A stretch of 33,419 bases of DNA. It comes from a virus. A program made the position numbers and the translations under genes. A model generated the notes under the pieces. The model did not search any database and had not been told where the DNA came from. It saw only the letters and a list, made by a program, of their open reading frames with translations. Within the stretch, counting starts at the first letter, position 1; every line of letters starts with the position of its first letter. This document shows, piece by piece, positions 8,396-32,580 of the stretch. The stretch covers positions 1 through 33,419 of IMG/VR virus record IMGVR_UViG_3300013307_000037; one strand, given 5' to 3'.

Positions 8396-8811
8396 CAGGA
8401 TTTCCTCCTAAATCGACCCTGTCTGTGTTGTTCTTTAGCTTGTTTCGACAATTTTTCACGGGCACCGGGCGTCGCCAAATATCTAATTCTTCCACGGCTC
8501 AGTCTCTCACGCAAATCGTCGGATAATTTATACCCCGGCAATCTTTCATTCAAAAGTTTCCCAGGCCAAGTCTGCATCACTTCTATTTCTCGTAATCTAA
8601 TTTCTTTATTTCGACAGAAAACCACCAGCACAAATACCCACTCTGGTTCTTTTATCTTATCCCATAATTCTTGTAACTCACGACTCGTATGCTCGCCACT
8701 TCTAAGCATCACCCTGTGCCACGTATATCTATTGGTGACATGGACACTGGACCCAATGTAAGCTGCACCAGTTGGGATATGAATAATGGCATATACTCCA
8801 CGGGCACTCAT
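8395..8811 (-). CDS. GIY-YIG homing endonuclease
   Basis: A 138-aa free-standing GIY-YIG nuclease. The motif appears as GVYAII (5-10) and AYIGSS (17-22), followed by the conserved Arg region NRYTWHR (27-33) and a later catalytic Glu in REIEVMQTW. The C-terminus, with SDDLRERLSRGRIRYL and AREKLSKQAKEQH, looks like NUMOD3-type DNA-binding repeats. Its DNA is clearly richer in A+T than both neighbours, a sign of horizontal acquisition. It sits between the hypermodification helical-domain gene and the radical SAM gene and overlaps both by 4 bases (ATGA at each end), so it may promote spread of this cluster. The ATG at 8811 has a long G run 7 bases in front. Confidence 0.9.
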   Translation of the reverse strand: MSARGVYAIIHIPTGAAYIGSSVHVTNRYTWHRVMLRSGEHTSRELQELWDKIKEPEWVFVLVVFCRNKEIRLREIEVMQTWPGKLLNERLPGYKLSDDLRERLSRGRIRYLATPGAREKLSKQAKEQHRQGRFRRKS

Positions 8812-9704: not shown

Positions 9705-9877
9705 GCCGAACTCCTCTCCGGTCTCCAGACCCAGCAGCCGAATTCCCAGTGGTACTCTCCCAGCTTGTCGCCCGCGCGCAGCAGACTAGGACGCCTGTGC
9801 ACGACGATCACGTGGCCGCCGTGCGCGAGCCACGTCCCGTCCCGAGGGCCGCCCAGACAGGGACCCTCGTTGGTCAT
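9701..9877 (-). CDS. Small conserved phage protein (GGPRDG...WVWRP)
   Basis: A 58-aa protein of a type seen in many phages: an N-terminal CLGGPRDG, an AHGGHVIVV strand, then GEYHWEFGCWVWRPE. It is probably a small beta-rich protein of unknown function. The ATG at 9877 overlaps the exonuclease stop (ATGA), and its own stop overlaps the start of the helical-domain gene (GTGA). A longer frame to 10219 is only the shadow of the exonuclease. Confidence 0.72.
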   Translation of the reverse strand: MTNEGPCLGGPRDGTWLAHGGHVIVVHRRPSLLRAGDKLGEYHWEFGCWVWRPERSSA

Positions 9878-10431
9878 CGCAGCCGCGCGTAGGCCGCCTG
9901 AACGCACCGCGCCTGATGGATCGCGTCGTCCAGCGCGTTGTGGTGCGAGCCCTGCCGCTTCATCGCGAACGGGTTGAACTTGCACACGTCGTAGGCCGTG
10001 CGGGTGCAGCGGCTGTCCCAGAATTTCCACGGACACTCCTGTCCGACTGCGCGAGCGGCGGCCTCGAATACCGGCTGATCGAAGTTGGCACCCTGCGACC
10101 AGACGAATACGCCGCGCTCCTTGCGGAACCAGTCGTTGAACGCTCGCACCACTGCGGCCAGCGGCTTCTGGTCGATAAGCAGCGCGTCCTGCACCTCCTT
10201 CTTCTGCTTGGCCCACCACGCCTTGGTACCGGCGTCCACCGTCAGGCCAGCCTCGAAGCAGCTACCGTCGTCCACCGTCGAGTAGAACTTCTCCCCGATC
10301 TCGCTGCTGAACGGGTCGAACGTGCACGCGCCCACGCTCCGGATGGCGCTGCCGGGTGTCGTACCCCACGTCTCCAGATCCAGCATGATGTTGATCTGAT
10401 TCGGCAGGGCGTCTGTTAGAAATACTCGCAT
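9874..10431 (-). CDS. DEDDh-family 3'-5' exonuclease (ExoVIII/RNase T-like)
   Basis: A 185-aa RNase H-fold exonuclease. Metal ligands are D18 and E20 in MLDLETWG, D118 in WSQGANFDQP, and H164 with D169 in HHNALDDA, so the DEDDh set is complete. Layout resembles the small phage exonucleases related to the exonuclease VIII nuclease domain. It probably trims DNA or RNA 3' ends during replication, recombination or host DNA breakdown. The ATG at 10431 has AAGGAG 5 bases in front. The first 170 bases are also covered out of frame by the run-on end of the small upstream gene. Confidence 0.9.
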   Translation of the reverse strand: MRVFLTDALPNQINIMLDLETWGTTPGSAIRSVGACTFDPFSSEIGEKFYSTVDDGSCFEAGLTVDAGTKAWWAKQKKEVQDALLIDQKPLAAVVRAFNDWFRKERGVFVWSQGANFDQPVFEAAARAVGQECPWKFWDSRCTRTAYDVCKFNPFAMKRQGSHHNALDDAIHQARCVQAAYARLR

Positions 10432-10579
10432 CGTGTCTCCTTGCTGCGGCCTGTACGCCGCCGGTTGTGTAGTTCCTGTCGTATCTGCGGCTCAACTCGA
10501 TCGCAACTTGCCGCCAGTTTCGATATACGTTCTCGTATAGACCTATCGCTTCCATCACCGGTACTGCTCTGCGTCCCAT
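10262..10579 (-). CDS. Small HTH/Myb-like protein with run-on tail
   Basis: A 105-aa frame. Residues 9-50 look genuine and helical, with NWRQVAIELSRRYDR and TTGGVQAAARR, like a Myb- or GcrA-type DNA-binding tri-helix. From about residue 51 the frame overlaps the exonuclease by 170 bases and becomes His/Arg/Gly-rich, as expected of a shadow frame. The ATG at 10579 lies one base after the helicase stop (TGACATG), so it is translationally coupled. It may be a small transcription regulator; not certain. Confidence 0.5.
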   Translation of the reverse strand: MGRRAVPVMEAIGLYENVYRNWRQVAIELSRRYDRNYTTGGVQAAARRHDASISNRRPAESDQHHAGSGDVGYDTRQRHPERGRVHVRPVQQRDRGEVLLDGGRR

Positions 10580-10580
10580 G

Positions 10581-12137
10581 TCAGACCCACGGACAGCCCC
10601 TGTTCATCTGCGGTTCGACTATCGACAACCGCTGCTTGGCTCTAGTCACGCCGACGTACCACACGCGGCGCTCCTCGTCTCGCTTTGTCTCGCTGCGGTT
10701 CATCTCCATGTAGGTGCGGCCCGCCATCTCCTTCATGAGCACTACGTGATCGGCCTCACCACCCTTAATCGAGTGGATGGTCGAGAGACGGACGCGGGGT
10801 CGTCCACCGCGTAGACGCTCACCGTTCCGTCTGGCAGCACGCATGTATGCCATGTCCGTGTCTGGTATTCTGTCGAGCGCGACATGCCAAGGCAGACTTG
10901 AATCGACGCACAACCCACCATTGGCTCGCAGTTCCTGCACGGAGACCAGTAGCTCCTCGTCATCACCGAACTGCTCCAGTTTCTTGTTGCCCTTCTTGAT
11001 GCCGACGCCACCGTTAGCGCTGCCAGCGACCGAGATGTACTTGTACATGGCGCGGGCCTCAGACAGCGGAACCATCTGCTTCTTCAGGTCCTCCCACGCG
11101 CCAGCCGCCCGCACCATGTCCACGTCGATGCTGGACTTGCCAGCGATCTCGTAGACCACGCCCTGCGCCCGTAGCTGCTCCTCAACGTAGTCCTTGAACA
11201 CGTAGCTGTTGCGAGCAAGCACCAGTACGGAGCCCTTCGCCGCCAGATCGACGCCTCCGAAGTCGGAGAAGTAGTCCACCTCGCCGTCGTCGCCAGCCTT
11301 GGCCTTCCAACTCTTGTCGCGGCGATGCTTCACGCCCTGTATCACCCTGTTGGCCACGGCCTGCACGCTGCTCGGCACGCGCCAACTCTGACCGAGCACC
11401 GAGGCATTTCCGTCCATGTCGACGAACTGGCTCACGTCCGCGCCCGCCCACTCGAAGATGGCCTGATCGTCGTCGCCGGCCACGACCACCCTGCCCGCCG
11501 TCCGCGCCAGCAGTCGCACTACCTCCCACTGCAATGCGGACAGGTCCTGTGACTCGTCGACGAACAGTCGATCGAGACCTGCGTCCTGCCCGTTGGCCAC
11601 GAATTCTAGGAGCATGTCGGTGTAGTCGAGCAGCCCTCGTCGCTTCTTGAATGTCTCGAGTGCCTTCGCGACGCGCTGCACCTCGTTCCACGGCAGGCCG
11701 TCGTTGTCGATATCGTACTGCTGCTTCAGCGAGATCTGCCGGATACGCGCTAGGTTCTCGAGGAATAGAATACGATCACCCTCCAGGAAGCCCGACAGCA
11801 TCCCGTCGTCCGACCACGCTCGCCCAGTAACGCGGATACCAGCGTAGTCAGCGAACTCGTTAAGCGTCTTGCCCGCAAGAACGTCACTCGACCTGAGACC
11901 AAGTCGCCGATAGCACAGGGAGTGGATGGTCCGGAAGTACGGCATCTGGTCGTCCCGGAAGCCGAACTTTTTCTTCGCGCGATCGACGGCCTCATTGGCA
12001 CCCTTCCTGGTGAAAGTGATATAGCCTATCTTCGACGGGTCGGCCCCCCGGTCCATCTCCTGCTCTACGAGGTTCAGCAGGGTCGTAGTCTTGCCGGTGC
12101 CGGGGGGACCTAGAACAATCTCGGTCGAGGTGGTCAT
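10581..12137 (-). CDS. Superfamily 1 DNA helicase (UvrD/Rep-like)
   Basis: A 518-aa SF1A helicase, shorter than bacterial UvrD (about 720 aa). Motif I is GPPGTGKTTT (10-19), Ia TFTRKGANEA (41-50), II FVDESQD (192-198), III GDDDQAIFEWAGA (221-233), IV around SWRVP, V STIHSIKGGEADHVVL and VI YVGVTRAKQRL near the C-terminus. It should unwind DNA with 3'-5' polarity in replication or recombination. The ATG at 12137 overlaps the HAD gene stop (ATGA) with GGAG 9 bases in front; the long extension to 12446 is the shadow of that gene. Its position beside primase and exonuclease genes suggests that it serves phage DNA replication. Confidence 0.93.
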   Translation of the reverse strand: MTTSTEIVLGPPGTGKTTTLLNLVEQEMDRGADPSKIGYITFTRKGANEAVDRAKKKFGFRDDQMPYFRTIHSLCYRRLGLRSSDVLAGKTLNEFADYAGIRVTGRAWSDDGMLSGFLEGDRILFLENLARIRQISLKQQYDIDNDGLPWNEVQRVAKALETFKKRRGLLDYTDMLLEFVANGQDAGLDRLFVDESQDLSALQWEVVRLLARTAGRVVVAGDDDQAIFEWAGADVSQFVDMDGNASVLGQSWRVPSSVQAVANRVIQGVKHRRDKSWKAKAGDDGEVDYFSDFGGVDLAAKGSVLVLARNSYVFKDYVEEQLRAQGVVYEIAGKSSIDVDMVRAAGAWEDLKKQMVPLSEARAMYKYISVAGSANGGVGIKKGNKKLEQFGDDEELLVSVQELRANGGLCVDSSLPWHVALDRIPDTDMAYMRAARRNGERLRGGRPRVRLSTIHSIKGGEADHVVLMKEMAGRTYMEMNRSETKRDEERRVWYVGVTRAKQRLSIVEPQMNRGCPWV

Positions 12138-19943: not shown

Positions 19944-20227
19944 TACTTGTCTCCCAGCATGCAGTTCTGGGTCACCACGTCCCAGAATCCATTGGTGTCG
20001 GTGCACTTCTCGGCGTCCTGCTGCACGGCGTTCGCGGCGTCCTCAGCCTTCTTGTCCTTGGCCTTGACGTCGGCGATCGCCCGGTTGTAGCCGAGATTGA
20101 CGTAGTGCTCGCGAATCACGATCGCGCCGCCAACGGACGAGGCGATACAGATAGCGTAGATCACGACCCGGAGCGGCGAGATTCCGAAGAACCCAGCCAC
20201 AGTGTTGAGAATAGAAAGCTGTAGCAT
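19943..20227 (-). CDS. Inner-membrane protein, candidate i-spanin
   Basis: A 94-aa protein with one N-terminal transmembrane segment (about 19-38) and a charged helical region (DVKAKDKKAEDAANAVQQDA), ending with a CTDTNGFWDVVTQNC loop with two Cys. Topology (membrane anchor plus periplasmic helix) suits the inner-membrane spanin that connects with the lipoprotein encoded next. The ATG at 20227 overlaps the endolysin stop (ATGA) with AAGGGAG in front. Confidence 0.62.
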   Translation of the reverse strand: MLQLSILNTVAGFFGISPLRVVIYAICIASSVGGAIVIREHYVNLGYNRAIADVKAKDKKAEDAANAVQQDAEKCTDTNGFWDVVTQNCMLGDK

Positions 20228-21492
20228 CAGTTAAGTCTCCCTTTGTTGTAATCACTGGTGGCCGCCTTGGCCGCCTTGGTCGAAGCGTACCAAACCGCAC
20301 AGGCCAGCAGACCCGCCAGAACGAACCACGCCTCCGGCGGCACCTTGGCGAAGGCGTCCTTCACGCTGGACATCTTGTCCTGCACGCTGCTGAAATAGTC
20401 GCTGACCGAGTTGCCGGTCAGTCCGACGGCCGCGCCGCCCGCTGCCACCTTGGCCCAGAAGCGCTGGATAAGCGAGAGACGCACGGTGTCCAGGTGCTTA
20501 AGGTCCTTCGGAGCGGCGCTGGCTCGAGAGTCGTTGATAGGTCGCTGCCAGTTCTCGTTGATGGCGTCGTCGACGGCGTCCATCAGCTGATCGTTCATCG
20601 CGGGCACCGCCTCGATGCCGCGATCGATGTAGAACGTGGTGACGGCACCGGCTGTCTGGCTGCCCCACTTGCCGTCCAGGTCGCCGACCGTGAAGTAGCC
20701 CATGTCGTGCAAGTCCTGCTGCAAGATCAGAACACGATGATCGTACCGGCCGGGTCGCGGCCCCCCGCTCCGCGAGACCGGGGGTGCGCTGTCCACGTGG
20801 TCCGACTGGGCCTCGACGGTGTGCGAACTGGTGGGCTCGCCGCTGGTGGGCTCGCCGCCGCTGTGCCAGACGAGGGCTAGGGTCTCCTGAGAGTCGATCT
20901 GCTTGCTGACCACGTTGAGATCCACCTCGCCACCGACGCCTGGAATCGTGTGCGGCTGCGGTCCGACGCGTCCGTCGGTGTACTGCCACAGGAAGAAGTC
21001 GGTGAAGCCGTCCGGCAGACGCGCCTGCGGCCCGTACTGGCACAGCCAGAGCAGTTTCTCGCAGAGGTACGCCCTGTCGGCAGCGGACAGCTTTCCGATG
21101 TTCTCCTTCAGTCGGTTGCCGCTGTAGATCGCGCAGTTGTAGCCGCGCGTCTCGACCAACTTCAGGAACTGCACGGCCTGCGTGATCGACATGTTGGACT
21201 TCGGATTGTCCTCGAAATCGAGCACCAGCAGGGTCTCGGCGTCCGGGTCGGCGTAGCGCAGGAAGTTGCTGACCTGGGACACGATGTCTGAGCCGTCGTT
21301 GAAGTGGTACGCGCCCCACAGCAGACCGGCCGCCTTGGCAGCGCTGCGCCGCTTGACATAGTCCGGATCGCGGTAGCTGCTGCCCTGTGTCGCCTTGTGA
21401 ATGACCCCCCAGATACCGGCCGAGGCGACGGCCTCGAAGCTGGCGACGCTGTTGTGGTGACTGATGTCGATTACGCGCGGTGTCATTGTCAT
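20227..21492 (-). CDS. Endolysin: GH25 muramidase, PG-binding domain, C-terminal TM
   Basis: A 421-aa cell-wall hydrolase. Residues 5-195 form a GH25 (Chalaropsis-type) lysozyme domain with VIDISHHN (D9), LDFED (D92, E94) and FLWQYTDG (167-174). After a Ser/Thr/Pro/Gly linker with an EPTSGEPTS repeat comes a peptidoglycan-binding-type domain (about 251-317: VLILQQDLHDMGYFTVGDLDGKWG). Near the C-terminus a transmembrane segment lies at about 388-405. No N-terminal signal is present. A C-terminal membrane anchor on a muramidase is unusual and may control its release. The ATG at 21492 overlaps the upstream stop (ATGA) with GAGGAC in front; ATG 21486 is also possible. Confidence 0.92.
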   Translation of the reverse strand: MTMTPRVIDISHHNSVASFEAVASAGIWGVIHKATQGSSYRDPDYVKRRSAAKAAGLLWGAYHFNDGSDIVSQVSNFLRYADPDAETLLVLDFEDNPKSNMSITQAVQFLKLVETRGYNCAIYSGNRLKENIGKLSAADRAYLCEKLLWLCQYGPQARLPDGFTDFFLWQYTDGRVGPQPHTIPGVGGEVDLNVVSKQIDSQETLALVWHSGGEPTSGEPTSSHTVEAQSDHVDSAPPVSRSGGPRPGRYDHRVLILQQDLHDMGYFTVGDLDGKWGSQTAGAVTTFYIDRGIEAVPAMNDQLMDAVDDAINENWQRPINDSRASAAPKDLKHLDTVRLSLIQRFWAKVAAGGAAVGLTGNSVSDYFSSVQDKMSSVKDAFAKVPPEAWFVLAGLLACAVWYASTKAAKAATSDYNKGRLN

Positions 21493-23141
21493 CTGAGCCA
21501 GTCCTCGTTGGGTTTGCCCAGAAGCTGCGCGGTCCAGCCGCTCATGCTTCTGGCGTACGGAAGCATCTCCTGATGTCTAGTCTGCCACGCTCTCGTGAAG
21601 GCCGTGACGGCGTGCCACTTCTGGCCGCGGAACCCGTTGGGGCTACTGTCCATGGGCACGCCGCAGAACACGATCTTGTCGTGTCCGTGCTCGCGAGCCA
21701 CCTGATACGCGAACAGTCCGCTGCTGCCGCCCCAGTCCCGCAGCATCTTGCCGCGCGGCGGGTTCAGCTTGCGCGCCCCGTCGTGGCACCACAGTTCGAG
21801 TGGGGGCTCCAGCCCGTTGTTCTTGCGCTGACCTAGCCACGTCGGCAGCTTGTCCGGATGCAGCGTGCAGGCCACGACGGGATGCGGGAACTCGCCGATC
21901 TGATCGTTCACCACGTAGTACTCGACGCGGTTACCTCGGAACATGGTCTGAAGTTCCATCAGGTCTCGCTGCCAGCACTCCGCACCGCCGACTACGATCG
22001 CCACGCGGCTACCGGGCGCGGGCTGCTCGGCGACCGCGGTCGAGCGACGAGCGATGAAACAGTTGTTGGCGAACCACCACGTCTGCTTGTTTCGCGCGCG
22101 CAGCATGTCGCACAGTTCAGTAGTCAGCTGCTCGTCTATCTCGAAGCCGCGCGCACGAAACTTGGCGTACCAGTACGGTCGCTCCTGCTCGTTGACGTGG
22201 CAGTGGCCGCCGAACCCAGCCTTGGCCGCGCTGAACAGAACGGCGTGCTCGGCAGCGTTGCACACCGTGTCCACCAGCGTGTCGGCGTACTTCTCCTCGA
22301 CGTGCTCGGCGACCTCGGTGCAGATAGCCACGTCGTGCTTGCCCACGTCTAGCGGCTGCGTGAGATCGCGTATCACGGCGTCAGGAAAATGCTTCAGTAC
22401 GTTGGTGCTACCGTCCACCCCGAGAATTGCCTTGCCCAAGCCGCCGAGTGCCTGAAGGATGTAGCCGTTGCCACAGCCGAAGTCCACGGCGCTGTTGAAG
22501 TGCAGACGAGCGTCGAGCCACTTGGCGATATTGACATATTCGTTGCGCCAGCCGACGTGCATCTGGTAGAACTTGGCGTCGTAGTCTGCATCCAGGTTGC
22601 GCGCTATGTCGCCCGGCTTGGTACCCTCGAAGCACATGCTCTCGAGCGCGTTGAACTCGTCTCCGATCACGTGACCATGACCCTCGACGCTGATCAGCGC
22701 CTTGTGGCTGCTGTCGCCGGGTAGACACTCCTCTATCCTATCGAAGCCCACGTACTTCAGCGTCGATCGCATCAGGCTCGCTGTCCACCCTGCCTCGTGA
22801 CCGTGGCAGAATATCATGGCGTGCAGGGCACCCTTACGATCGGGGGTCGGCGCCCAGCCTCGCTGATGCACCCAGTTGTAGTATCGCTGATTATCTGACT
22901 CCGCCAGCTTCTCGAGGCTCGGCACCGTCACTCGCAGCACGCCACCGGGCCGCAGCACGCGCAGCGCCTCGTCGAAGAACCGCACGGCATCGTGAAACTT
23001 GACGTGCTCCACGCAGTGCTCTATGAAGATGAAGTCTGCTGACGCCGTGGGCCACGGCAGAGGCTTGGTGATATCTACGTCGCGATCGTGATTCGACCAG
23101 CCGGGTAGCTTGTTAGTACCGCATCCCAGATTTAGTTTCAC
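21489..23141 (-). CDS. Fusion: two SAM methyltransferases plus MptE-like domain
   Basis: A 550-aa protein with three units. Unit 1 (1-160) is a class I SAM methyltransferase: LNLGCGTNKL at the start, DFIFIEHCVEHV, LRPGGVLRVTVPS. Unit 2 (185-365) is a second methyltransferase: AVDFGCGNGYIL (218-229), AILGVDGS, VAICTEVAEHV. Unit 3 (379-550) starts with RVAIVVGGAECW and later has SSGLFAYQVAREHGHDKIVFCGVPMD, which resembles the DUF115/MptE-like Rossmann family. Sugar or surface-polymer modification is likely. The GTG at 23141 overlaps the next gene stop (GTGA) with AGGAG 6 bases in front. Joined to two glycosyltransferase-like genes, it may decorate virion glycans or DNA. Confidence 0.8.
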   Translation of the reverse strand: MKLNLGCGTNKLPGWSNHDRDVDITKPLPWPTASADFIFIEHCVEHVKFHDAVRFFDEALRVLRPGGVLRVTVPSLEKLAESDNQRYYNWVHQRGWAPTPDRKGALHAMIFCHGHEAGWTASLMRSTLKYVGFDRIEECLPGDSSHKALISVEGHGHVIGDEFNALESMCFEGTKPGDIARNLDADYDAKFYQMHVGWRNEYVNIAKWLDARLHFNSAVDFGCGNGYILQALGGLGKAILGVDGSTNVLKHFPDAVIRDLTQPLDVGKHDVAICTEVAEHVEEKYADTLVDTVCNAAEHAVLFSAAKAGFGGHCHVNEQERPYWYAKFRARGFEIDEQLTTELCDMLRARNKQTWWFANNCFIARRSTAVAEQPAPGSRVAIVVGGAECWQRDLMELQTMFRGNRVEYYVVNDQIGEFPHPVVACTLHPDKLPTWLGQRKNNGLEPPLELWCHDGARKLNPPRGKMLRDWGGSSGLFAYQVAREHGHDKIVFCGVPMDSSPNGFRGQKWHAVTAFTRAWQTRHQEMLPYARSMSGWTAQLLGKPNEDWLR

Positions 23142-23812
23142 TTTTCACTCCTGTCATTGTAGAATTGCTCCATCACGTCTATAGTCGCGTGCGTGAGCCA
23201 GTCCAACTTGTAGCTGCCGAGGTTCGCCACGGTCAGCGCCTTGAAGTCGTCGCGCATGGTGCGCCAGTTCAGGTATCTCAAATCGCGACCAACCAGTCCG
23301 CGGATCACAACCTCCGGCTCTGGTCGGCGATTGCGCCGCTCCCAGTCGTACTGCTGAAGAAAATTATTCGCCCTGATCCAGCTAGTGCGGAACAGCATCA
23401 GGCCGGTCTCGACCCAGTGATGCGGCGCACTGCTGACACGAGTGCTGGCGACCTGCACATTCTGGTGCTCCATCCAACCGATAGCGGGCTCGATAAGTGG
23501 CAGCAGCAGACTGTCGCACTCCACGTGTATCGCATAGTCGTAGCCCTCGGCGATAGCCCGGAACAGGCCGTAGCTGAAGGCTCTACCCCAGCCGTCGCGG
23601 CCGCCGCGCGACAGATGACCGATATTGTCCCGGAAAGAGTAGTACCGAATGGGCATCGGAATGTGCGGCAGGGACGGACTCTGGCTGTCCACCACCATCA
23701 CGTCTAGACCCTCGCGCTTGTTCCGAAGCGCGAGAGCCGACCACATCTCGAGTACGCGCGCCTTCTCCGGACCGTCGCTGTAGCACGTTCCGAATAGGAG
23801 CGCGCGCTTCAC
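23138..23812 (-). CDS. Glycosyltransferase-like protein (GT-A-like)
   Basis: A 224-aa protein with ALLFGTCYSDG at the start, a MVVDSQSPS strand, a GWGRAFSYGLFRAI helix and YAIHVECDSLLLP, where ECD takes the place of the DxD metal-binding motif of GT-A enzymes. The later WVETGLMLFRTSW fits the acceptor side. It is short for a full GT-A enzyme. GTG start at 23812, overlapping the upstream stop (GTGA), with only a weak Shine-Dalgarno sequence, so it is probably translated by coupling. Confidence 0.6.
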   Translation of the reverse strand: MKRALLFGTCYSDGPEKARVLEMWSALALRNKREGLDVMVVDSQSPSLPHIPMPIRYYSFRDNIGHLSRGGRDGWGRAFSYGLFRAIAEGYDYAIHVECDSLLLPLIEPAIGWMEHQNVQVASTRVSSAPHHWVETGLMLFRTSWIRANNFLQQYDWERRNRRPEPEVVIRGLVGRDLRYLNWRTMRDDFKALTVANLGSYKLDWLTHATIDVMEQFYNDRSEK

Positions 23813-24042
23813 GTGTTGATCACCGCGTTGAGTGCAACCAGCGCGCGATACGGATCGAGCAGTTCGGTGGTGCCGATGGTGTTGGCCTTGGCAGCGTTGA
23901 TGCGCGCCGCAGCCAGCGTCGGGTCACCCTCGGACCACTTGTCGTGGATCGTAGTGGTGCCCAGCGCCAGATCGATGTCCTTGAGTTCCCTGATGGGATC
24001 CAGGAGATCGAAGTTGTTCAGGACTGTGTGGACTCGTGCCAT
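23809..24042 (-). CDS. Small hypothetical protein
   Basis: A 77-aa helical protein (LLDPIRELKDIDLALG, LAAARINAAKAN) without a recognised family. The ATG at 24042 has GGAG 8 bases in front and lies 25 bases inside the end of the GT9-like gene. Its size and position between two glycosyltransferase-like genes suggest an accessory or structural role, but nothing supports a specific function. Confidence 0.6.
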   Translation of the reverse strand: MARVHTVLNNFDLLDPIRELKDIDLALGTTTIHDKWSEGDPTLAAARINAAKANTIGTTELLDPYRALVALNAVINT

Positions 24043-25013
24043 TGCTTGGTCTCCATTGGCAGGTTATCTATGAACTCCCGAATGCGCCTGCTCGCTTCGG
24101 GGATGTCGATCGCTTTGTTGCAGTTGCGCGGACAGTACTTCATGACCCCGTGACACTTGCAGGACACGATCGGATCGATGCCGAGTGTCGGAGCCAGATG
24201 CACCCCCGCTCTCTGCGTCGTGTCGTAGTTCTCGCGCCCCCCGTACACCGTGATGGAGGGCGTGCCGACGGCCTGCGCCAGAACGGGGGCGTTGCCCGCG
24301 CAGCAGAAGACTGCGTCTGCCTCGGCGATCAGGGCCGCCATGCCTGCCATCGACAGTGCCCCGTCGTGCGACGTGAAGTCTACGTCCCGCTCCACCGCTC
24401 CGACGATCTGCTCCTCCGGACCCAGATAGGCAAGGCTGACGACAAAGAAGTCTTGACGGGCGACCCTGTAGAGTGAGGCGTAGCTGAGCCAGTCCGGGTT
24501 TCTTCGCTTGCTCTCTGGCCACTCCCTGCGATAGACCACTGGGCGATAGACCATGAGCGGGCGATCGAATTTGTACCCGGTCATCTCTAGGAAGCGCAGT
24601 GCCTCGTCGCGCCACTCGCTGCGCACCGGCAGCGTGAAGTCAGGGGCGACGCTCGATGGCAGCCCGGCGACACGCATCATCGTATCGAGGATCGACCCGT
24701 ATCTGTCTATCTCGTGCTTGTGGTACCAGTTGCGTATCACGCGGTTGGTACGCGGTATGGACGACACGCTCCTGTAGATGCCGGGAAATTGTTCGCGCTC
24801 GCGCGCTATGTTCTGCCAGTGGCCCCACAGTCGCGTCTGCCGCAGCACCAGCTTCACGTCGTACTGTTCGATCAGATCGAGGTGTATCCAGGCGTGGCAG
24901 GTCTCGAGCCAGATATCGTAATTCGGCAGCAGCGACTTAAGAACCGCGCGCTGATGCACGCAGTCCCCGATGCCGTACATGCCGATATAGTGGAGAGGCG
25001 TGCGCGTCATCAC
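24018..25013 (-). CDS. GT9/heptosyltransferase-like glycosyltransferase
   Basis: A 331-aa GT-B-type protein resembling the ADP-heptose:LPS heptosyltransferase family. Visible features are IGMYGIGDCVHQRAVLKSL at the N-terminus (the G.GD loop) and LSMAGMAALIAEADAVFCCAGNAP (about 237-260) followed by AQAVGTPSITVYGG, the usual donor site. A Cys-rich stretch near the C-terminus (CKCHGVMKYCPRNC) is unusual and may bind a metal. It starts at GTG 25013 (GTGA overlap) or ATG 25010. It directly follows the tail fibre gene, so virion or fibre glycosylation is possible; DNA-base glycosylation is the alternative. Confidence 0.75.
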   Translation of the reverse strand: MMTRTPLHYIGMYGIGDCVHQRAVLKSLLPNYDIWLETCHAWIHLDLIEQYDVKLVLRQTRLWGHWQNIAREREQFPGIYRSVSSIPRTNRVIRNWYHKHEIDRYGSILDTMMRVAGLPSSVAPDFTLPVRSEWRDEALRFLEMTGYKFDRPLMVYRPVVYRREWPESKRRNPDWLSYASLYRVARQDFFVVSLAYLGPEEQIVGAVERDVDFTSHDGALSMAGMAALIAEADAVFCCAGNAPVLAQAVGTPSITVYGGRENYDTTQRAGVHLAPTLGIDPIVSCKCHGVMKYCPRNCNKAIDIPEASRRIREFIDNLPMETKQWHESTQS

Positions 25014-26485
25014 ATCGGGCCAGCGCGACTGATCTCGTACAGGGTCGTGCCATCATTGACGAACGCCAGTGTCCACTTCTTTCCAGAGACAGTGCCGGTG
25101 GCCAGCGTGCCGTTCATACTCACGTTGGCACCCGCCGTGATATTGAAGGACGAGGTGCCGCTCGTGATGATAATGAGCGTCGTGATCTCGCCCTCCCGCC
25201 CAGCGCCGCCGTTCAGGATTTGCAGATTGCCGGTCGGCGTGAACTTGCCGCTGGCGTAGTCGGCGCCGCTCGTACCGAGACTGATATTCGAGCTAGTCGA
25301 ACCTATGTTGATGAACGACGGGCGGTTGACCCAGTGCGTACCGTCGTACGTCAGCGTGTCTCCGACTGACGGAGACGTCAGGGTGGGGGCGAAGGCTGCG
25401 ACTGCCTCCCACTTGCCCGCCGTGTTGTTCCACGACAGAAGGAACCCGTCGATTCCGGAGCCCTCGGAGACAGTGACATCCGTGAGTGCTGACAGCGAAG
25501 TAGTGGTGGACGAGGGGGCTGTCGCCTCCCACTTGCCCGCAGTGTTGTTCCACGTCAGGGAGTAACCGTCTATGCCCACGCCCTTGGTGACATTGACGTC
25601 GGCTAACGCAGAAAGCGCCAATGTCAACCACTCAGTGCTCGCAGCAGTACCGTCTGTAGTCGCGAGCACCTGACCTGCTGAACCGGCCGGGGACGCTGGT
25701 GGTGCGCGGACTACGTCTATCCACTCCATGTCAACTGACGACCCTGTGGTGGTCGCCAGCGATTGACCGGGTTGTCCGGCCGGGGACGCTGGTGGTGCGT
25801 AGACGCCGTCGACCCACTCGGTATTCAGCGCGCTGCCGTCTCGCGTTGCTACCATCTGACCAGTCACGCCGCCCGGCGAGGACGGCGGAGCGTAGACACC
25901 CTCGAATGCGTGCCACGCGGCGTCCTGGTTGGTACCGCTGTTCTTGCGCAGATACTGCCCGGTGCTGCCGCCCGTCGGCAGCTTGTACGACCACGTGACG
26001 CTGTAGTCAGTGCCGTCCACCTTCGAGAGGACCTGACTTGTCGCACCACCTGCGGGCAGCGCGCTGCCCGGTGCGGACAGCAGAAGAGCGTAGTAGTTGT
26101 CTCCGGCACCGTCGTTGGCGTTGGGGTCGAAGCTTCCAGACGATGACGTGTGCGCGAAGATCACAAGATACAGATTGCCGTTGGCCGTGAACACGTCGTT
26201 GACCGAGTACGGCGTGCTCGGGGCCCACGCACCTCTGTCCCGGAACGTCGCTATCGGTATCGTGAATGGTCCACGCGTGGTGCTGTCGGTCATCGTGAAC
26301 ATCAACTCGTCACCGTGCAGCGTGATATTGTCGATGCTGACTGTGGTGTGCGCGTTAGTCTCCAGTGTCGAGATGCGCTGGTCGTGCTGGTAGAAGTTGA
26401 AATCTACCTCGAACGAAGTTAGTAGACGATTTACACCAACCCATCTCGCGCTTACCGGGTCTGTTTCACAGTACGTGATTGTCAC
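25010..26485 (-). CDS. Tail fibre-like protein with internal repeats
   Basis: A 491-aa protein. The N-terminal 110 residues (VNRLLTSFEVDFNFYQHDQRI, then APSTPYSVNDVFTANG) look like a virion-attachment region of phage fibres. Residues 196-288 hold three 31-residue units of the form APPASPAG..GQ.LAT..G.....EW. Residues 291-370 hold two 40-residue units (LSAL.DV.V..G.GIDG..L.WNNTAGKWEA). The C-terminus is Gly/Thr/Ser-rich beta structure. Beta-rich repeats like these form trimeric fibres that contact the host. GTG start at 26485 with AAGGGAG 6 bases in front; the track to 26584 enters the upstream gene. Confidence 0.8.
   Translation of the reverse strand: MTITYCETDPVSARWVGVNRLLTSFEVDFNFYQHDQRISTLETNAHTTVSIDNITLHGDELMFTMTDSTTRGPFTIPIATFRDRGAWAPSTPYSVNDVFTANGNLYLVIFAHTSSSGSFDPNANDGAGDNYYALLLSAPGSALPAGGATSQVLSKVDGTDYSVTWSYKLPTGGSTGQYLRKNSGTNQDAAWHAFEGVYAPPSSPGGVTGQMVATRDGSALNTEWVDGVYAPPASPAGQPGQSLATTTGSSVDMEWIDVVRAPPASPAGSAGQVLATTDGTAASTEWLTLALSALADVNVTKGVGIDGYSLTWNNTAGKWEATAPSSTTTSLSALTDVTVSEGSGIDGFLLSWNNTAGKWEAVAAFAPTLTSPSVGDTLTYDGTHWVNRPSFINIGSTSSNISLGTSGADYASGKFTPTGNLQILNGGAGREGEITTLIIITSGTSSFNITAGANVSMNGTLATGTVSGKKWTLAFVNDGTTLYEISRAGPM
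25376..25615 (-). repeat. Two 40-residue coding repeats in tail fibre gene
   Basis: Two consecutive units of about 120 bases encode near-identical LSAL.DV...GIDG..L.WNNTAGKWEA segments (residues 291-330 and 331-370). DNA identity is visible in the CCTCCCACTTGCCCGC blocks near 25408 and 25528. Confidence 0.85.
25622..25900 (-). repeat. Three 31-residue coding repeats in tail fibre gene
   Basis: Three units of 93 bases encode the APPASPAG...GQ.LAT..G.....EW repeat (residues 196-288). The second and third share an exact block including CCGGCCGGGGACGCTGGTGG, at about 25685 and 25777. Similar, more distant units precede them (residues 144-195). Confidence 0.85.
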
Positions 26486-26496
26486 TTCTATCTCCC

Positions 26497-28176
26497 TTAG
26501 AATGGACCCACGAGGCCGCCGCCAGTGGATACTGGGTCGAACGCTATGAGCGGTGGTGGGTCGCCAAACGGGACACCATACCAACCTGAGGCATTGACGT
26601 TAGTACCAGCATTGGGCAAGTTTTGTCCCCATGCCGAGCCGTAGAGCAGCACGCCCGGAATACCTTGCGGCCCTATCGGATCACCAATAATCCTACCACC
26701 ACCATCAGCGAGTTGATTTCGCCCGACACCGTACGATGGCCCAGTTCCCTTACTATCTAATCGGTAGGCACCAACTAAATAACCGGCAGCAATAATCTGG
26801 AAATCTCCATTAGGGGCGATCACGTGAGGTTTTTCTAACGGATAGACTTGCACCATTTGATTAGGCAGCGAACTATTCGTGTTCACAGGGCGATGGGCAC
26901 CGCGCCTGATCTTGAGCGGTACAGTCTCATTGTCCGCAGTGCAATAGATACTCCATAGCAACCCAGGAGGATCAGCCTGCGACGGCAGATCAGTAGTGAT
27001 ATGGTGTGTTGTTCCCATTAAGACACCACCGGCGAAGAATGAAGATGCAATCAATTGTGCTCCATCTAAGGCACGGTCTAGACTCCACGATGGATTTGTC
27101 TTATCATAAGCAAATACACTCACAGTCATATCATTAGTGACAGCGTTATTTGGGTTTGATCCAGATATGTTTTTTGGGACATGGATATTTATGAACGCAC
27201 CAGCAGCATTGACATTTACTTTGAACGCCCAAGCTGGGGCATTAGGTGAGCCCTGGGAGCCACTGTATTTGATAGGACGTGAACCAAGAAACACTACACT
27301 TTCATCAAGAATTTGATATGAGGGTACGCTCGTAGCGGGTCCACCAGCGAATGGATAAGCAGCAGCATTGACCACTACGATAACGGTACCACCCCAATTG
27401 ACATTAATGATATTTTGAAACGGATCTAGCCGATACGGCGGGTTGACACCGCCACTGCCTGTAATTTTACCTTGCGCGGGTTGGCTCATGTCAATCAGGT
27501 ACTGATTGAGCAGCTTAATCTGCTTGCCCTGTCCGTTGGTATCCGAGTTGTTCATGTTGATCGGACTGGCGTTGCCACTGGCCTTGTAGAAACTGAGTAC
27601 TTCCTGCTCGACATATTGGGAGTCGTTCTCGGTCGAGGGGTCTATCTGGTAGTCCTCACCCTGCACTACGTATGCTGTCAGCGTAGGGTCGTCGTCGAAG
27701 GCTGCCTGAGCATCGTCATCGATGTTAGTGTCGTAGTGCACGAACCGGCGCGCCTCGAACTGACGAGCCGTGGTGCTGTCGCTATCGTCACCAGTGTCAA
27801 ATACCAGATGCTTGTCCTGATAGCCCTGACCGTGTCCGTCACCGCCGAACGACTTCATCACCTTGATAACCGGCAGCGGTATCCACTCGTCCGGATCAGT
27901 AACGTCGTCAGTATTCTCAGGATCGCACAGCTTCAGTGTCACGTACTCCCGAGCTGGATTACCGTTCGGATCGTAGTCGTCCCCAGCAGGATCATCCATC
28001 CACTTCAGCTTGCGCTGATGCCCCTGCCACTGCACGTCAGGTTTCTGCGTGACGCTCTTGATAATGTCCATGCGCTCGACGTCTACCCACATGTCCTGAA
28101 GAACGTCTCCATTCTTGTTCGTTCCGACGATGCGGATAACGTGTGTCTTGCGGGTGTCTGGTGCGCCGGTGGACAT
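26497..28176 (-). CDS. Putative tail-associated protein with AT-richer C-terminal module
   Basis: A 559-aa protein in the tail region, without a family I can name. Residues 1-236 (RIVGTNKNGDVLQDMWVDVE at the start; acidic, DDSDSTTARQFEARRF in the middle) are encoded by GC-rich DNA like the neighbours. From about residue 237 (GKITGSGGVNPPYRLDPFQN) to the end the DNA is clearly AT-richer and the protein turns into Asn/Gly/Ser-rich beta structure. This suggests a swapped receptor-binding or structural module. The ATG at 28176 overlaps the upstream stop by one base (TAATG). Probably virion-located. Confidence 0.65.
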   Translation of the reverse strand: MSTGAPDTRKTHVIRIVGTNKNGDVLQDMWVDVERMDIIKSVTQKPDVQWQGHQRKLKWMDDPAGDDYDPNGNPAREYVTLKLCDPENTDDVTDPDEWIPLPVIKVMKSFGGDGHGQGYQDKHLVFDTGDDSDSTTARQFEARRFVHYDTNIDDDAQAAFDDDPTLTAYVVQGEDYQIDPSTENDSQYVEQEVLSFYKASGNASPINMNNSDTNGQGKQIKLLNQYLIDMSQPAQGKITGSGGVNPPYRLDPFQNIINVNWGGTVIVVVNAAAYPFAGGPATSVPSYQILDESVVFLGSRPIKYSGSQGSPNAPAWAFKVNVNAAGAFINIHVPKNISGSNPNNAVTNDMTVSVFAYDKTNPSWSLDRALDGAQLIASSFFAGGVLMGTTHHITTDLPSQADPPGLLWSIYCTADNETVPLKIRRGAHRPVNTNSSLPNQMVQVYPLEKPHVIAPNGDFQIIAAGYLVGAYRLDSKGTGPSYGVGRNQLADGGGRIIGDPIGPQGIPGVLLYGSAWGQNLPNAGTNVNASGWYGVPFGDPPPLIAFDPVSTGGGLVGPF

Positions 28177-28403
28177 TACTCGGCAGTGCCCCAGTCTGCC
28201 TCAGATTTCTCGTTGGTGTACTGTGTCATGTAGTACGACGAGCTAGCGCTCACGCTGCCGTTGAACGTCTTGCCGCCACCGCTGCGTCCGAACTGTAGAA
28301 TCACGTTCGGCACCCCCGCTCGACCGGGGGTGAAGAACGGTGTGCTCGGCGAGATGTCCGGCGTCTGGAATGGTCGTACTATCGCCTCGATGCTGTTGCT
28401 CAT
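28176..28403 (-). CDS. Small tail-region protein
   Basis: A 75-aa protein with TPFFTPGRAGVPNVILQFGRSG and a Ser/Tyr-rich C-terminal half (SVSASSSYYMTQYTNEKSEA). No family recognised. The ATG at 28403 overlaps the large tail protein stop (ATGA), with AGAAGGTG in front, and the stop is joined to the next gene by TAATG. Probably a small virion protein or assembly factor. Confidence 0.65.
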   Translation of the reverse strand: MSNSIEAIVRPFQTPDISPSTPFFTPGRAGVPNVILQFGRSGGGKTFNGSVSASSSYYMTQYTNEKSEADWGTAE

Positions 28404-31400
28404 ACGTTCACCTTCTGAAGCAGGGGAATGATCTTGTTGCTGTCATGCCACGCATTGTCGGCAACGGTCTGATTGTAGGCGTTCTGCTGCATGCGAAGAG
28501 TCGAATCTCCGCCGGACACGTCGACGACATAACAACCGTAGGTCTTCAAGGCAGTGAAGATTTGCTGACCGATAGTTGAAAGACCGGTTGGCATCGCGGT
28601 GGATGGAGGAATGGCGAGCAGATCGCCCTCCTGCACTATTCCACTAGACGTATTGCCGTCGCCTCGAATGGCAGGTGCAACAAAGCCCGGCTTGACAAGC
28701 GTATAGAGAGGGCTAAGCTGGAGTGCATGCATGATCGGACCAGCATCTGTTTCCGCCTGGATCAACATACCACCTAGACCGCTTGACCCGCACGCCATGA
28801 TGCCAGCGCCCTGACCTCCGGAGAAGTTGCCGAAGCCGGTACCGGTGATGACGTCGCAGTGCCCCTGCTGATTGGCGGTTGCCGTGGTATCGCTAGTACG
28901 ACTGAACACCCAGAAATTCCAAACAGTAGTCCCATCGATGATGACAATCTCGCCGTCTGATCCTGGAGCTCCAGTGGCACCTGACGGGATATTGAGTTGG
29001 ACAGAGCCTGCTGGGTAGCCCTGACCCGCACCGTAGTTGACTGTACACAAAGGATCTGATGGTGAGGAAATATAGACTGGAGCAGAATATTGATTCCAGT
29101 TTGCTGAATAGTTGAAGCCTGTAGTTGCAGGCCACGCCAACGGCGTGAAGGTCGCACCATCAGGTACCGGGGTATTCCACAGCGAATTAGATGTGAATGG
29201 TACATCGCCTAGCTGGAACCCGGCCCCCGACGACCCACCCGTCAACTTGGGCACGTAGAAGGTGTCTGCGAAGTTAGTGCTGGACGGCAGGATAGACTTA
29301 TCACCACCTGATATCGAGGGAAAGTAGAATATATCACTATCTATGAAGAGTGATGACATTGGACCGTTCGGCGGCGGAGTAACAGATTGCGGAAACGTTA
29401 TCTGTGGTATGTCGGTATAATCTTCACTAATTCCAGTCAGATCAATACCCTTCGGAGCCGTCAGGGGTGTTAGAGTGACTACACAGCTATTGTTGAAGAC
29501 AAGACCAGTGAGGGGTTTCAGCGTAGCGTCGTACCATATGGGATTGAGTAGCGTGGCGCGCTGAACGCTGTTAGCGGATAACTGTTGAATCTGTTGCTGT
29601 ACCCACGTAGCATAACTCAGACTGTTGGAGGGAAACTGAGTCAGTCTGGCGGCCTGCGCCATGGCACCCAGAGCCGAACTGACGGCCCCGGCCTGCTTGC
29701 TAAAATCACCGAGCACACCTTCGCTAATCACGATCTGGGACTTATCGAGCGGAAACACCAGTCCGTCATCACTGGGGCTGATAACTGGTGGCGTGTAGCC
29801 AACGTCACTACTGTCGAGCAGCACTACGGTCCCGGTGCGCTGTTGGTAGCCATTCACGTAACCATCCACGTAGACTGGTTGTCCAGAGTCGGCCCTGACT
29901 GCCGTGTCCTTGCCGATACAGCACCCGATCTGAACGTGACACGTCTCTTGACCGCTGCCGCCGTCGCACGCGCGATGCACCTCTATGATCTTGCCCTCGG
30001 CGAGACCCCCGGCCAGTCTAGTGTCGTATACGACTGCGGTCTTGCGCAATGACATTTGAGACCCTAGCCCGAACGGATCGATCGGCTGGAAATCTAGTGT
30101 GACAGCGCGGGACTTCATGAGAGCTCGTGCTCTCATGATAGACACGAGATACTCGACTGACTGAAGTCCGCGAGTAGTGTCGAAGTACGTGCGACCCCAC
30201 GTGTCGCCGGGCGTGCCACCGATCGGCAGGTCTCCGACGCCGATTGCGGCCCAGATCACGGTGTTGTCGGCAGTCTGCGCGTGAAGTGCCGGGTTGAACG
30301 GGGGGATCATGAATTCCGCCCCAGTGGTGCCACCGCGGACAGCGATGTAGTGTGACTTGCCGTCAGGGACGGTGTTGCCGAGGCACGTCCACGTGACGCT
30401 GCCGTCCTGCACGGTGCTGGCGTACGTGCCGGGCCAGTTCGGTTCGGTCAGCGCGGTCAGACCGGGCGTCGTGCAGACAAAGAAAAATCCGTTGTTGCCC
30501 TGTATCAGCTGACCTCTGGACACCTGCGAGCCTATCTGCGGCACCTGCTGACGACCCGGCAGCGTGAGTACCTGCCAAGTGATATAGAGCGGCTTTCGTG
30601 GTAGAATGACTTCGCCCGCTGGCACGTTGGTCGCAGCCGTCCAGTCGTAGGCCGTCTCCGGCGGGTTAGGTGTTCCGAGGCTGGCCCATACCACTGTTCC
30701 GTCCACAGTGGTCTCCCCCGGCACGTCGCTGAAGTCTGGCTCGACAGTTCCGGCCGTGCCGGACTGCACGGCGATCTGAGCGGTGCGCTGGCTCGGAATC
30801 GACGGATCGTCTGGAAATACTATGGTGTCGATTTCGACTAACCTACCTGCCACAGTAGTCCAGTTCAACAGATCGAGTATGGGAAGACTGACGTCGGCAC
30901 CTTGCTTGGTGATAACCTCGGAGTCCTGTGTCACCAGAGGATCGACGAGTATCGGCTGCAGATCGCTGGTCAGCAGCATCTGCAAGCGCTCGGTTCGCTG
31001 TCTCGTGAGATCGCGATACTGCAGAACTAGTGACGTGTTCACCTGCCATACCGGGCAGAACGCGTAAGTCACGTTTAGATGCATTGGTATGTTAGTAGGA
31101 TCCGGGTCTCCGTCGCCGTCCACAGCGAACGGATCTAGGAACCCCGGCTGAATATCCTCTGTCAGGATCACACCGCCGCTAGGAATACCACCCACGGTAC
31201 CGCCTAGACTTGGCATCGTGACCGACCAGTTCAGGCTGAGCGTGTCGCCGTCTTCGTGTGTCTTCTCCCTGTTGGTCCACGAGCCGCTGGCGGTTGCCGT
31301 CACAGCGTGGGAGATACCCAGCGCGTCGTAGGCATTGGCGAACGCCACAGTGTAGCCACCGCCCAGTGGAGACAACGGCTTGGGCCAGTCTCCTATGATT

Positions 31401-32110
31401 GCATCACCGGCGTAGCTGCTGATGACATTGTTGCCCATGTCGATGTAGCCCTGACCAGTCTGGTTCCAGCTTACAGTCGCCACCATCAGTATGCTGGTAA
31501 TCTGGCTGGCCTGATCGAAGTTCACCTCCATGGCGTTATACAGGTGTTGATCCTGCGTGACCGTCACGCTGCCGTCGTCACCGTTAACGATGTCAGCCAC
31601 ACTGCAGACGTGTGTCACTGGATCGACGTGCCACAGCCCGGACACCGCCTCCAGAACTGTGTCCGGATCGTCACGCTTGGTCTCGTCGATGAACACCGGG
31701 TCATACGGACCAGTGGTCTTTATCTGTTCGGCCAGCGCTTGTATCTGCTCAAAGTAGTCGATCGGCCACGCGACCAATTGGATCGATATCTTTTCCTTGA
31801 AGATATCCTTCGGCGCAGCTATCAGGCGACCGCAGAACAATGGCGTGAAGGTGACACCGTCGTCACTGCGCGACAACCAAGCCCACTGCTTGCGTGCGCT
31901 ATTTAGCAGGCCAACGTGAGGATTGCGTATGGTAAGATCCAGTGTCGGCTTATCTCCCTCCTTCTCACCGATGTCGAGCGTGAAGATATACTCGTCCATG
32001 CGATTGTGCACGGTGGGGTCGAAGGCCGTACCGTTGCGCATGGCTATCGGATCCGGTGGGTTGATCCATGCGAAGTAGAACGGCCCAGCGACTGGTGTGA
32101 CGGTGGTCAT
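28400..32110 (-). CDS. Large tail protein with enzyme-like C-terminal module
   Basis: A 1236-aa tail protein. The N-terminal 250 residues (LDLTIRNPHVGLLNSARKQW, LFCGRLIAAPKDIFKEKISI, AMEVNFDQ) resemble tail-hub or tip proteins. The middle (about 440-640) has three copies of a beta unit ending T.DGTVVWASLG, QDGSVTWTCLG or ADNTVIWAAIG, found in many phage tail proteins. After a helical linker (about 800-860) the last 260 residues contain NSLWNTPVPDGATFTPLAW, GSDGEIVIIDGTTVWNFWVF, AGIMACGSSGLGGMLIQAE and FTALKTYGCYVVD. This order recalls a family of secreted bacterial proteins of unknown, probably polysaccharide-related, function. The C-terminal DNA is AT-richer. The ATG at 32110 has GGAGG 4 bases in front and an ATGA overlap. 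Confidence 0.82.
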   Translation of the reverse strand: MTTVTPVAGPFYFAWINPPDPIAMRNGTAFDPTVHNRMDEYIFTLDIGEKEGDKPTLDLTIRNPHVGLLNSARKQWAWLSRSDDGVTFTPLFCGRLIAAPKDIFKEKISIQLVAWPIDYFEQIQALAEQIKTTGPYDPVFIDETKRDDPDTVLEAVSGLWHVDPVTHVCSVADIVNGDDGSVTVTQDQHLYNAMEVNFDQASQITSILMVATVSWNQTGQGYIDMGNNVISSYAGDAIIGDWPKPLSPLGGGYTVAFANAYDALGISHAVTATASGSWTNREKTHEDGDTLSLNWSVTMPSLGGTVGGIPSGGVILTEDIQPGFLDPFAVDGDGDPDPTNIPMHLNVTYAFCPVWQVNTSLVLQYRDLTRQRTERLQMLLTSDLQPILVDPLVTQDSEVITKQGADVSLPILDLLNWTTVAGRLVEIDTIVFPDDPSIPSQRTAQIAVQSGTAGTVEPDFSDVPGETTVDGTVVWASLGTPNPPETAYDWTAATNVPAGEVILPRKPLYITWQVLTLPGRQQVPQIGSQVSRGQLIQGNNGFFFVCTTPGLTALTEPNWPGTYASTVQDGSVTWTCLGNTVPDGKSHYIAVRGGTTGAEFMIPPFNPALHAQTADNTVIWAAIGVGDLPIGGTPGDTWGRTYFDTTRGLQSVEYLVSIMRARALMKSRAVTLDFQPIDPFGLGSQMSLRKTAVVYDTRLAGGLAEGKIIEVHRACDGGSGQETCHVQIGCCIGKDTAVRADSGQPVYVDGYVNGYQQRTGTVVLLDSSDVGYTPPVISPSDDGLVFPLDKSQIVISEGVLGDFSKQAGAVSSALGAMAQAARLTQFPSNSLSYATWVQQQIQQLSANSVQRATLLNPIWYDATLKPLTGLVFNNSCVVTLTPLTAPKGIDLTGISEDYTDIPQITFPQSVTPPPNGPMSSLFIDSDIFYFPSISGGDKSILPSSTNFADTFYVPKLTGGSSGAGFQLGDVPFTSNSLWNTPVPDGATFTPLAWPATTGFNYSANWNQYSAPVYISSPSDPLCTVNYGAGQGYPAGSVQLNIPSGATGAPGSDGEIVIIDGTTVWNFWVFSRTSDTTATANQQGHCDVITGTGFGNFSGGQGAGIMACGSSGLGGMLIQAETDAGPIMHALQLSPLYTLVKPGFVAPAIRGDGNTSSGIVQEGDLLAIPPSTAMPTGLSTIGQQIFTALKTYGCYVVDVSGGDSTLRMQQNAYNQTVADNAWHDSNKIIPLLQKVNV

Positions 32111-32580
32111 ACTTCCTCCATCGGGATCGACCACTCGTACCCGGCCTGCCACTCGTCGAAGTGGCCGGTGGGCTTACCTATCATGAACGTGATCAGCGGC
32201 TGATAGAACGTGAAACTACCCTCGGTGAAGGTGCTGCCGCTTACTACTGGACGGGACGGCGTACCTCCGACAGTGGGGTACGACAACAGATACGCGCATC
32301 CAACTGTGACTATCACGCCCGGCCATATGTCGTTGCGGCTCGGCGGGCGCTGGTCCTTGGCGGATATGGTGGACTTGAATTTGCGAAATCTGGATACGGA
32401 CATGTCGACGAGTTCGCCATTGACAGTTCGGTCCTGGAACATGCTGCCGTCTATCATCTCCATCGTCTGTGTGATACCTCGAGACGAGTACAGCGGCAAC
32501 ACTGCCTTGCTGTCGCTCACAGTCGAAATCGTCAGCAGGGTCTCGTACGGGATACTGTGTCCGCGAAAATTATTAGGCAT
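32107..32580 (-). CDS. Minor tail protein-like
   Basis: A 157-aa beta-rich protein between the tape-measure end and the large tail protein. Segments RGITQTMEMIDGSMFQDRTV, FKSTISAKDQRPPS and PLITFMIGKPTGHFDEWQAG suggest a distal tail or baseplate component like those that follow tape-measure genes in siphoviruses. The ATG at 32580 follows the upstream stop by 3 bases, and the end overlaps the next gene as ATGA. Confidence 0.7.
   Translation of the reverse strand: MPNNFRGHSIPYETLLTISTVSDSKAVLPLYSSRGITQTMEMIDGSMFQDRTVNGELVDMSVSRFRKFKSTISAKDQRPPSRNDIWPGVIVTVGCAYLLSYPTVGGTPSRPVVSGSTFTEGSFTFYQPLITFMIGKPTGHFDEWQAGYEWSIPMEEV

Follow-up and report, generated by a model that had tools for sequence, protein, structure and literature searches.

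A double methyltransferase with an MptE/CstII-like domain belongs to a shuffled phage gene cassette putatively involved in glycan modification

The analyzed window is the entire IMG/VR virus record IMGVR_UViG_3300013307_000037 (33,419 bases), and its gene of interest occupies positions 21489..23141 on the minus strand, with a GTG start at 23141 and a stop codon at 21489-21491. The encoded 550-aa protein consists of three domains. MT1 (aa 1-180; 22602..23141, minus strand) is predicted from Pfam, alignment and a census of related contigs to be a class I S-adenosylmethionine (SAM) methyltransferase and a core member of a larger gene cassette. MT2 (aa 184-366; 22044..22592, minus strand) is, by Pfam and alignment, a second class I SAM methyltransferase that behaves as a variable insert. 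D3 (aa 378-550; 21492..22010, minus strand) is an MptE/CstII-like Rossmann domain, as judged from homologue alignment, a structural model and fold matches. The same units recur in other phages in shuffled orders, together with two putative glycosyltransferases.

The Pfam family Methyltransf_11 matches the protein in two stretches (8.7e-17, 62 bits against a cut-off of 21.2), and Methyltransf_23 matches it at 4.3e-11 (43.2 bits, cut-off 27); the two methyltransferase stretches make up the first two thirds of the chain. SAM motif I is intact in MT1 (LNLGCGTNKL, with the acidic motif NHDxDVD) and in MT2 (VDFGCGNGY, then GVDGS). In the alignments of both domains, the key residues of motif I are invariant among homologues and the acidic residue past strand 2 is conserved. 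Other conserved motifs are EGHG.VIGD.FN.(I/L)ES at the C-terminus of MT1 and GGH.H(V/L)NEQ in MT2. Judged by these features, MT1 and MT2 are class I SAM-dependent methyltransferases, for which methyl transfer is predicted. A first-pass annotation made from the nucleotide sequence had described two such units with intact SAM motifs in one chain, followed by a third Rossmann-like unit of the MptE type, and both parts of this description hold: a search for lost SAM-binding residues found both units intact, and the third unit is discussed below.

The AlphaFold2 model of the whole protein, built on an 18-sequence alignment, has a mean predicted local distance difference test score (pLDDT) of 87.6 and contains three confidently modelled domains. 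Only the inter-domain segments 179-184 and 371-376 are of low confidence, and these linkers thus mark the three domains. A low predicted template modelling score (pTM, 0.45) is what three flexibly linked domains should give. A phmmer search of the whole protein against PDB sequences gave no meaningful match, and neither the whole protein nor the single D3 sequence found a match in a scan of viral contigs. For the whole model, Foldseek ranks the tandem methyltransferases AtPMT1, AtPMT2 and HcPMT highest, and the proteins closest in fold to D3 include MptE/HPPK. Both results would fit tandem methyltransferases acting successively on a small non-glycan metabolite that D3 makes or activates. We consider this scenario very unlikely, because identity to AtPMT1, AtPMT2 and HcPMT is 12-15% and the match reflects only two successive class I folds, and because the set conserved in relatives comprises MT1, D3 and two glycosyltransferases, MT2 being optional.

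The window D3 alone has no Pfam match. Six of 34 D3 homologues match PF01973 (MptE-like) at E <= 1 (best 3.3e-5), and the scores seen, 19-24 bits, lie below the gathering cut-off of 34.6; six of 34 match phrog_4603, annotated as 'alpha-2,3-sialyltransferase'; and one of 34 matches the CST-I family model at E 0.22, a model that the window D3 does not match. The D3 model (pLDDT 89.6, pTM 0.87) aligns best with CstII (PDB 1ro7) in VIA-align (Z 11.5, root-mean-square deviation 3.2, 164/177 residues), followed by MptE/HPPK (PDB 8sd5; Z 10.4, 138 residues). Foldseek against PDB alone was ambiguous for D3 (best 1.9e-3), whereas VIA-align set CstII and MptE apart from the rest. Thus, the label "MptE-like" is a fair statement of the modelled fold and says little about chemistry: CstII is an equal or better match, and nothing suggests pterin chemistry. 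The candidate role as a pterin enzyme was rejected, since there is no pterin gene context.

A second domain type, D3p, corresponds to the sialyltransferase-type phrog_4603 and forms one superfamily with D3 (hhalign 95.9%). Profile hidden Markov model searches of D3, D3p and the glycosyltransferase family GT224 (see below) against PDB sequences gave no meaningful match; the rows for 7osv, a designed protein, and retroviral p15 were judged to be chance. A two-row alignment of the window D3 and p38 of Paracoccus phage Pkon1 was used to fetch 29 viral D3 loci. Among these, D3 is mostly free-standing (~180 aa), and in six it forms the C-terminal end of a ~1000-aa chain. Pkon1 p38 itself (L002, 7962-8828) is a free-standing D3 with a ~100-aa C-terminal tail; the same kind of tail, with the common motif IAYEPHPV..ERKRELN, is observed at locus L013. 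Locus L017 contains two D3 copies, at 564-1124 and 8757-9112, the second of which is apparently broken (matches in two frames).

In 30 of 33 aligned D3 domains a His follows the GVPM strand (GxP/GxD motif), and this near-invariant column aligns with the invariant His of D3p; the window has Gly503 at this position. If the His is the catalytic base, for which it is a candidate by analogy with CstII, the window D3 may be altered or inactive, and its activity is therefore uncertain. The domain could then be a degenerate, non-catalytic unit serving in substrate binding or as a scaffold of a complex, and the protein would effectively be a double methyltransferase. This is a serious possibility, toward which we nevertheless incline less than toward a working domain, since the catalytic role of the His comes from the CstII analogy and the other near-invariant residues are all kept: N412, D413, H428, GSSG 472-475, G494, P496, R531 and SG 534-535. 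Conservation of the motif MSGWTA is partly biased, as it served as a search pattern, whereas no such pattern contained N412, GSSG or the His.

The gene lies in an operon-like late run whose order is minor tail protein, two structural-type genes, GT9-like gene, GT224, the 550-aa gene and endolysin. The minor tail protein (28400..32152, minus strand; phrog_17388, 1.8e-22) marks the upstream tail module. Between it and a structural-type gene with a CBM5/12 domain (25010..26584, minus strand; Pfam) lies the second structural-type gene (26497-28176), in the same late run; a homologue of the CBM5/12 gene also stands upstream of the cassette in L009. The next gene (24018..25013, minus strand) encodes a GT9-like, that is, heptosyltransferase-family-like, glycosyltransferase (phrog_6804, 2.3e-18; PF01075, 1.9e-4). 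It is followed by a member of GT224, a 224-aa GT-A-like glycosyltransferase family (23138..23812, minus strand) with the invariant motifs E.DSL, DGWGRA and ETGLM in the alignment; none of 50,697 isolate phage records matches this family. Directly downstream of the 550-aa gene is a GH25 endolysin (20227..21492, minus strand; Pfam and PHROG). Overlaps of 4 nucleotides connect the GT9-like gene to the CBM5/12 gene, GT224 to the start of MT1 (GTGA), and the endolysin to the stop of the 550-aa gene (ATGA). Because these overlaps extend from a structural gene to the endolysin, the window cassette genes are probably late and co-translated.

The three-domain order is not confined to the window. The search for the same order, which the first-pass annotation had proposed, identified a 583-aa MT1-MT2-D3 protein in one related phage contig, IMGVR_UViG_3300012001_000025 (L042, L071, L176), 51% identical to the window protein from end to end. 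There the genes are arranged as in the window, with separate GT9, GT224 and MT1-MT2-D3 proteins. In each of the three domains, the differences between the two genes cluster at third codon positions, and the existence of such a homologue with this pattern indicates that the domain order is more than chance. The same contig encodes an upstream 900-aa tail protein 50% identical to the product of 28400..32152 and an endolysin with 45% identity, so it belongs to a related phage and does not represent an independent fusion. In a quick GT224 tree the window and L176 are sisters (Shimodaira-Hasegawa approximate likelihood-ratio support 99); in the MT1 tree they are not clearly so. A single origin of the three-domain fusion is thus likely, as far as these comparisons go. 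No characterized protein with the order MT1-MT2-D3 was found, in agreement with the initial impression that no described enzyme has it.

A scan for MT2 revealed only two further sequences near 50% identity. In one locus (L070/L185) MT2 and MT1 are separate neighboring genes, and in the other (L072/L181) MT2 is placed after a GT9-GT224-MT1-D3 chain; MT2 is also a separate gene in L056, L142 and L143. Since it is separate or differently placed in relatives, MT2 moves as an intact block.

The wider cassette, composed of GT9, GT224, MT1 and either D3 or D3p, was surveyed in 50 distinct contigs obtained by a GT224 profile scan. GT9-like, GT224 and MT1 units occur together in 41 of them, and 37 of these also have D3 or D3p. 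The most frequent form is a single GT9-GT224-MT1-D3 chain (13/50 contigs, plus one with a separate MT2). A D3p-GT9-GT224-MT1 chain is found in eight contigs, and a separate D3p next to a GT9-GT224-MT1 chain in nine. The chain GT9-GT224-MT1 is accompanied by a separate D3 in one contig and stands alone in three. In two contigs (L043/L194 and L057/L187) it is followed by a second GT224 and then by MT1-D3, which looks like a duplication of the set. Fully separate forms are present in three contigs, the form of the window and a GT9-GT9-GT224 form in one each, and GT224 only in eight. The fused chains, of 920-1280 aa, come from uncultivated phages and from genomes of Mesorhizobium; in three Mesorhizobium-group genomes the chain is D3p-GT9-GT224-MT1, with a length of 959-964 aa. 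Repeated fusion of the units in varied orders points to one common product, and we regard it as strong evidence, at the level of gene structure, that the units act on the same molecule. By the same comparison MT1 and D3 are the core units and MT2 is an optional extra. The initial interpretation of the protein is partly supported: it overlooked the five-module cassette of which the protein is a fragment, and of the sugar or nucleoside product that it envisaged for sequential action, the sugar is better supported and the nucleoside is unsupported.

The second methyltransferase is a recurrent slot of the cassette, filled by different families. The MT2 family occurs in only four of the cassettes examined (window, L176, L181, L185). 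The FkbM family (PF05050) is present in 11 of 28 cassette contigs, in 10 of them inside the cassette or within ~2 kb of it after coordinate conversion. In L054/L191 (IMGVR_UViG_3300037180_000021) a 1282-aa chain has the order GT9-Methyltransf_24-GT224-MT1-D3, where the second methyltransferase differs from MT2 in both family and place in the chain. Behind the cassette of L009 there is a Radical SAM/SPASM protein with a C-terminal methyltransferase (9566-11020), and the gene at 3981-4895 behind the cassette of L183 has a start resembling it, by eye only. The window contains a gene with weak radical SAM similarity (7544-8395, minus strand; phrog_21308, 0.0032), away from the cassette.

The genomic context favors a virion protein as the acceptor. 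In a raw tally, which lacks a matched random-gene control, neighbors of the cassette and of free-standing D3 are mostly genes for tail fibres, endolysins, portal and head morphogenesis proteins, head-tail adaptors, major head proteins and head maturation proteases. The D3-type cassettes, including that of the window, are typically located at the end of the tail-fibre block, and in Pkon1 D3 directly follows the major capsid gene. Heptose as the sugar is suggested by GT9 similarity and by genes for adenosine diphosphate (ADP)-heptose. In L206 (8924-12118), a methyltransferase gene and the genes of an ADP-heptose pathway stand directly behind a GT9-GT224-MT1-D3 chain; the pathway genes encode a heptose-7-phosphate kinase (1.2e-41 against a heptose kinase of solved structure), an adenylyltransferase and a protein like ADP-heptose epimerase. 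The kinase, adenylyltransferase and epimerase are all present in three of 28 cassette contigs, in the two besides L206 away from the cassette. At 1e-10, four isolate phage records out of 50,697 match the heptose-7-phosphate kinase, a large enrichment in cassette phages, with search methods that differ between the two counts.

The same enzymes may instead alter the host surface glycan, that is, the lipopolysaccharide core or O-antigen, during infection, thereby blocking superinfection or the attachment of released particles to the receptor. Most GT9 enzymes are heptosyltransferases of the lipopolysaccharide core, which counts for this explanation, as do the ADP-heptose genes of some cassette phages, the MT1-like methyltransferases of cellular genomes such as planctomycetes and cyanobacteria, and the presence of the cassette in Mesorhizobium genomes. 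However, the cassette lies in the late structural block by head and tail genes and the endolysin and not in a lysogeny module. By hydropathy, no membrane or flippase-like protein is encoded in the window cassette, and the absence of transmembrane segments is as for modification of a protein in the cytoplasm. We therefore hold alteration of the host surface to be unlikely.

A still less probable scenario is hypermodification of phage DNA, in which glycans would be placed on hydroxymethylated pyrimidines and then methylated. Viral DNA-directed glycosyltransferases that add diverse glycans are known, according to the citation of Pyle et al. 2024 in PMC12619734. The window also carries a thymidylate synthase-family gene (3542-4570, minus strand; phrog_5131, 1.1e-93) that is nearer to cytidine monophosphate (CMP) 5-hydroxymethylase (PDB 5b6d, 1.1e-14) than to thymidylate synthases. 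Its product may synthesize a hydroxymethyl pyrimidine nucleotide, in which case the DNA of this phage could have modified bases. However, the cassette is 17 kb away from this gene, among structural and lysis genes, and a thymidylate synthase-family gene occurs in only one of 28 cassette contigs, the window. As a general function of the cassette, DNA hypermodification was rejected, since the hydroxymethylase-type gene is in the window only.

We thus return to modification of the virion. That a late cassette decorates a virion protein with a methylated glycan, probably one containing heptose, is, in our estimate, about evenly poised between being right and wrong. In such a scheme the GT9-like and GT224 enzymes would transfer sugars, at least one of them probably heptose from ADP-heptose, to a tail or head protein produced at the same time. 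The 550-aa protein would be the methylating and capping part of the cassette: MT1 would methylate the glycan, MT2 would methylate a second site, and D3, with its CstII/Maf-type transferase fold, would transfer or attach a further sugar or may now be a binding domain in this phage. Fusion of the units would let one chain act sequentially on one glycan. Donor, acceptor, reaction order and benefit belong to the proposed scheme, whereas the domains, their fusion and co-occurrence, the gene position and the intact SAM motifs are direct observations.

Several observations weigh against this scheme. The GT9-like protein scores 21.2 bits with PF01075, 0.8 bits under the cut-off of 22. The assignment of GT224 as a glycosyltransferase is drawn from its E.D motif, its context and weak matches (PF00535 in 2/14 sequences, best 0.01). 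Gly503 replaces the near-invariant His of D3. ADP-heptose genes are absent from the window contig, and the set is incomplete in 25 of 28 cassette contigs; the donor must therefore come from the host, unless the sugar is a different one. No CMP-sugar synthetase (PF02348) was found in the 28 cassette contigs; a sialyl-type reaction would thus need host CMP-sugar, and a CMP-sugar pathway in the phage was rejected. Finally, any glycan made by the cassette is a prediction from genes.

A broader and more tentative proposal, which we judge somewhat more likely to fail than to hold, is that GT9-like, GT224, MT1 and CstII/MptE-like units with an optional second methyltransferase form assembly lines for glycosylation and methylation, either in one chain or in tight coupling. 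These would be a new kind of phage enzyme that works in the cytoplasm and assembles a methylated glycan with heptose straight onto head or tail proteins, with the order of units shuffled and extra methyltransferases swapped between phages. Virion glycosylation has been proven in few phages, and a glycan pathway in which as many as four or five enzymes are variously fused points to one testable product; intact cassettes in Mesorhizobium genomes offer cultivable hosts. The analysis also suggests a function for D3, a widespread unnamed phage protein often located beside the major capsid gene, and provides a first hint of a role for GT224. A database label "methyltransferase" or "MptE-like" would hide the pathway.

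The larger module around the 550-aa protein is apparently undescribed: the literature searched described neither a system built from these fused units nor a fused glycosyltransferase-methyltransferase phage protein. Its parts can nevertheless be compared with known systems. D3 shares the fold of CstII (GT42, PDB 1ro7) over 164/177 modelled residues, and the central domain (pfam01973) of Maf, an enzyme that O-glycosylates flagellin, is reported to resemble Cst-II (PMC11339370). The differences are 10% identity, the fusion of D3 to methyltransferases, the absence of a phage CMP-sugar synthetase and Gly503 in the window. MptE/archaeal HPPK (PDB 8sd5) has the same fold and is weakly matched by the six PF01973-positive homologues, whereas the window D3 has no Pfam match, the homologues stay under the gathering score and no pterin genes are nearby. 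The tandem phosphoethanolamine N-methyltransferases of plants and nematodes (AtPMT1/2, HcPMT) likewise have two class I domains per chain, but they belong to other families and lack a third domain, and in the phage cassette MT2 is optional. The GT9 heptosyltransferases are linked to the cassette by weak PF01075 similarity and by the ADP-heptose genes beside one cassette; the window gene differs in being phage-borne and just under the Pfam cut-off, and in relatives this unit is fused to other enzymes. Protein p38 of Paracoccus phage vB_PkoS_Pkon1 (MK291442), annotated as a hypothetical protein, is a stand-alone protein 31% identical to D3 whose gene comes right after that of the major capsid protein; it differs in being unfused. 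Finally, mycobacteriophages Che8 and Rita carry glycans on capsid and tail (tail tube) proteins, as Freeman et al. 2023 is cited in PMC12619734 and PMC11256854. As far as these citations describe them, they share with the present cassette, known from genes alone, phage glycosyltransferases decorating virion proteins, and differ from it in that here GT224, with no homologue among the isolate phage records, and the other glycosyltransferase are fused with methyltransferases and lie by structural genes.

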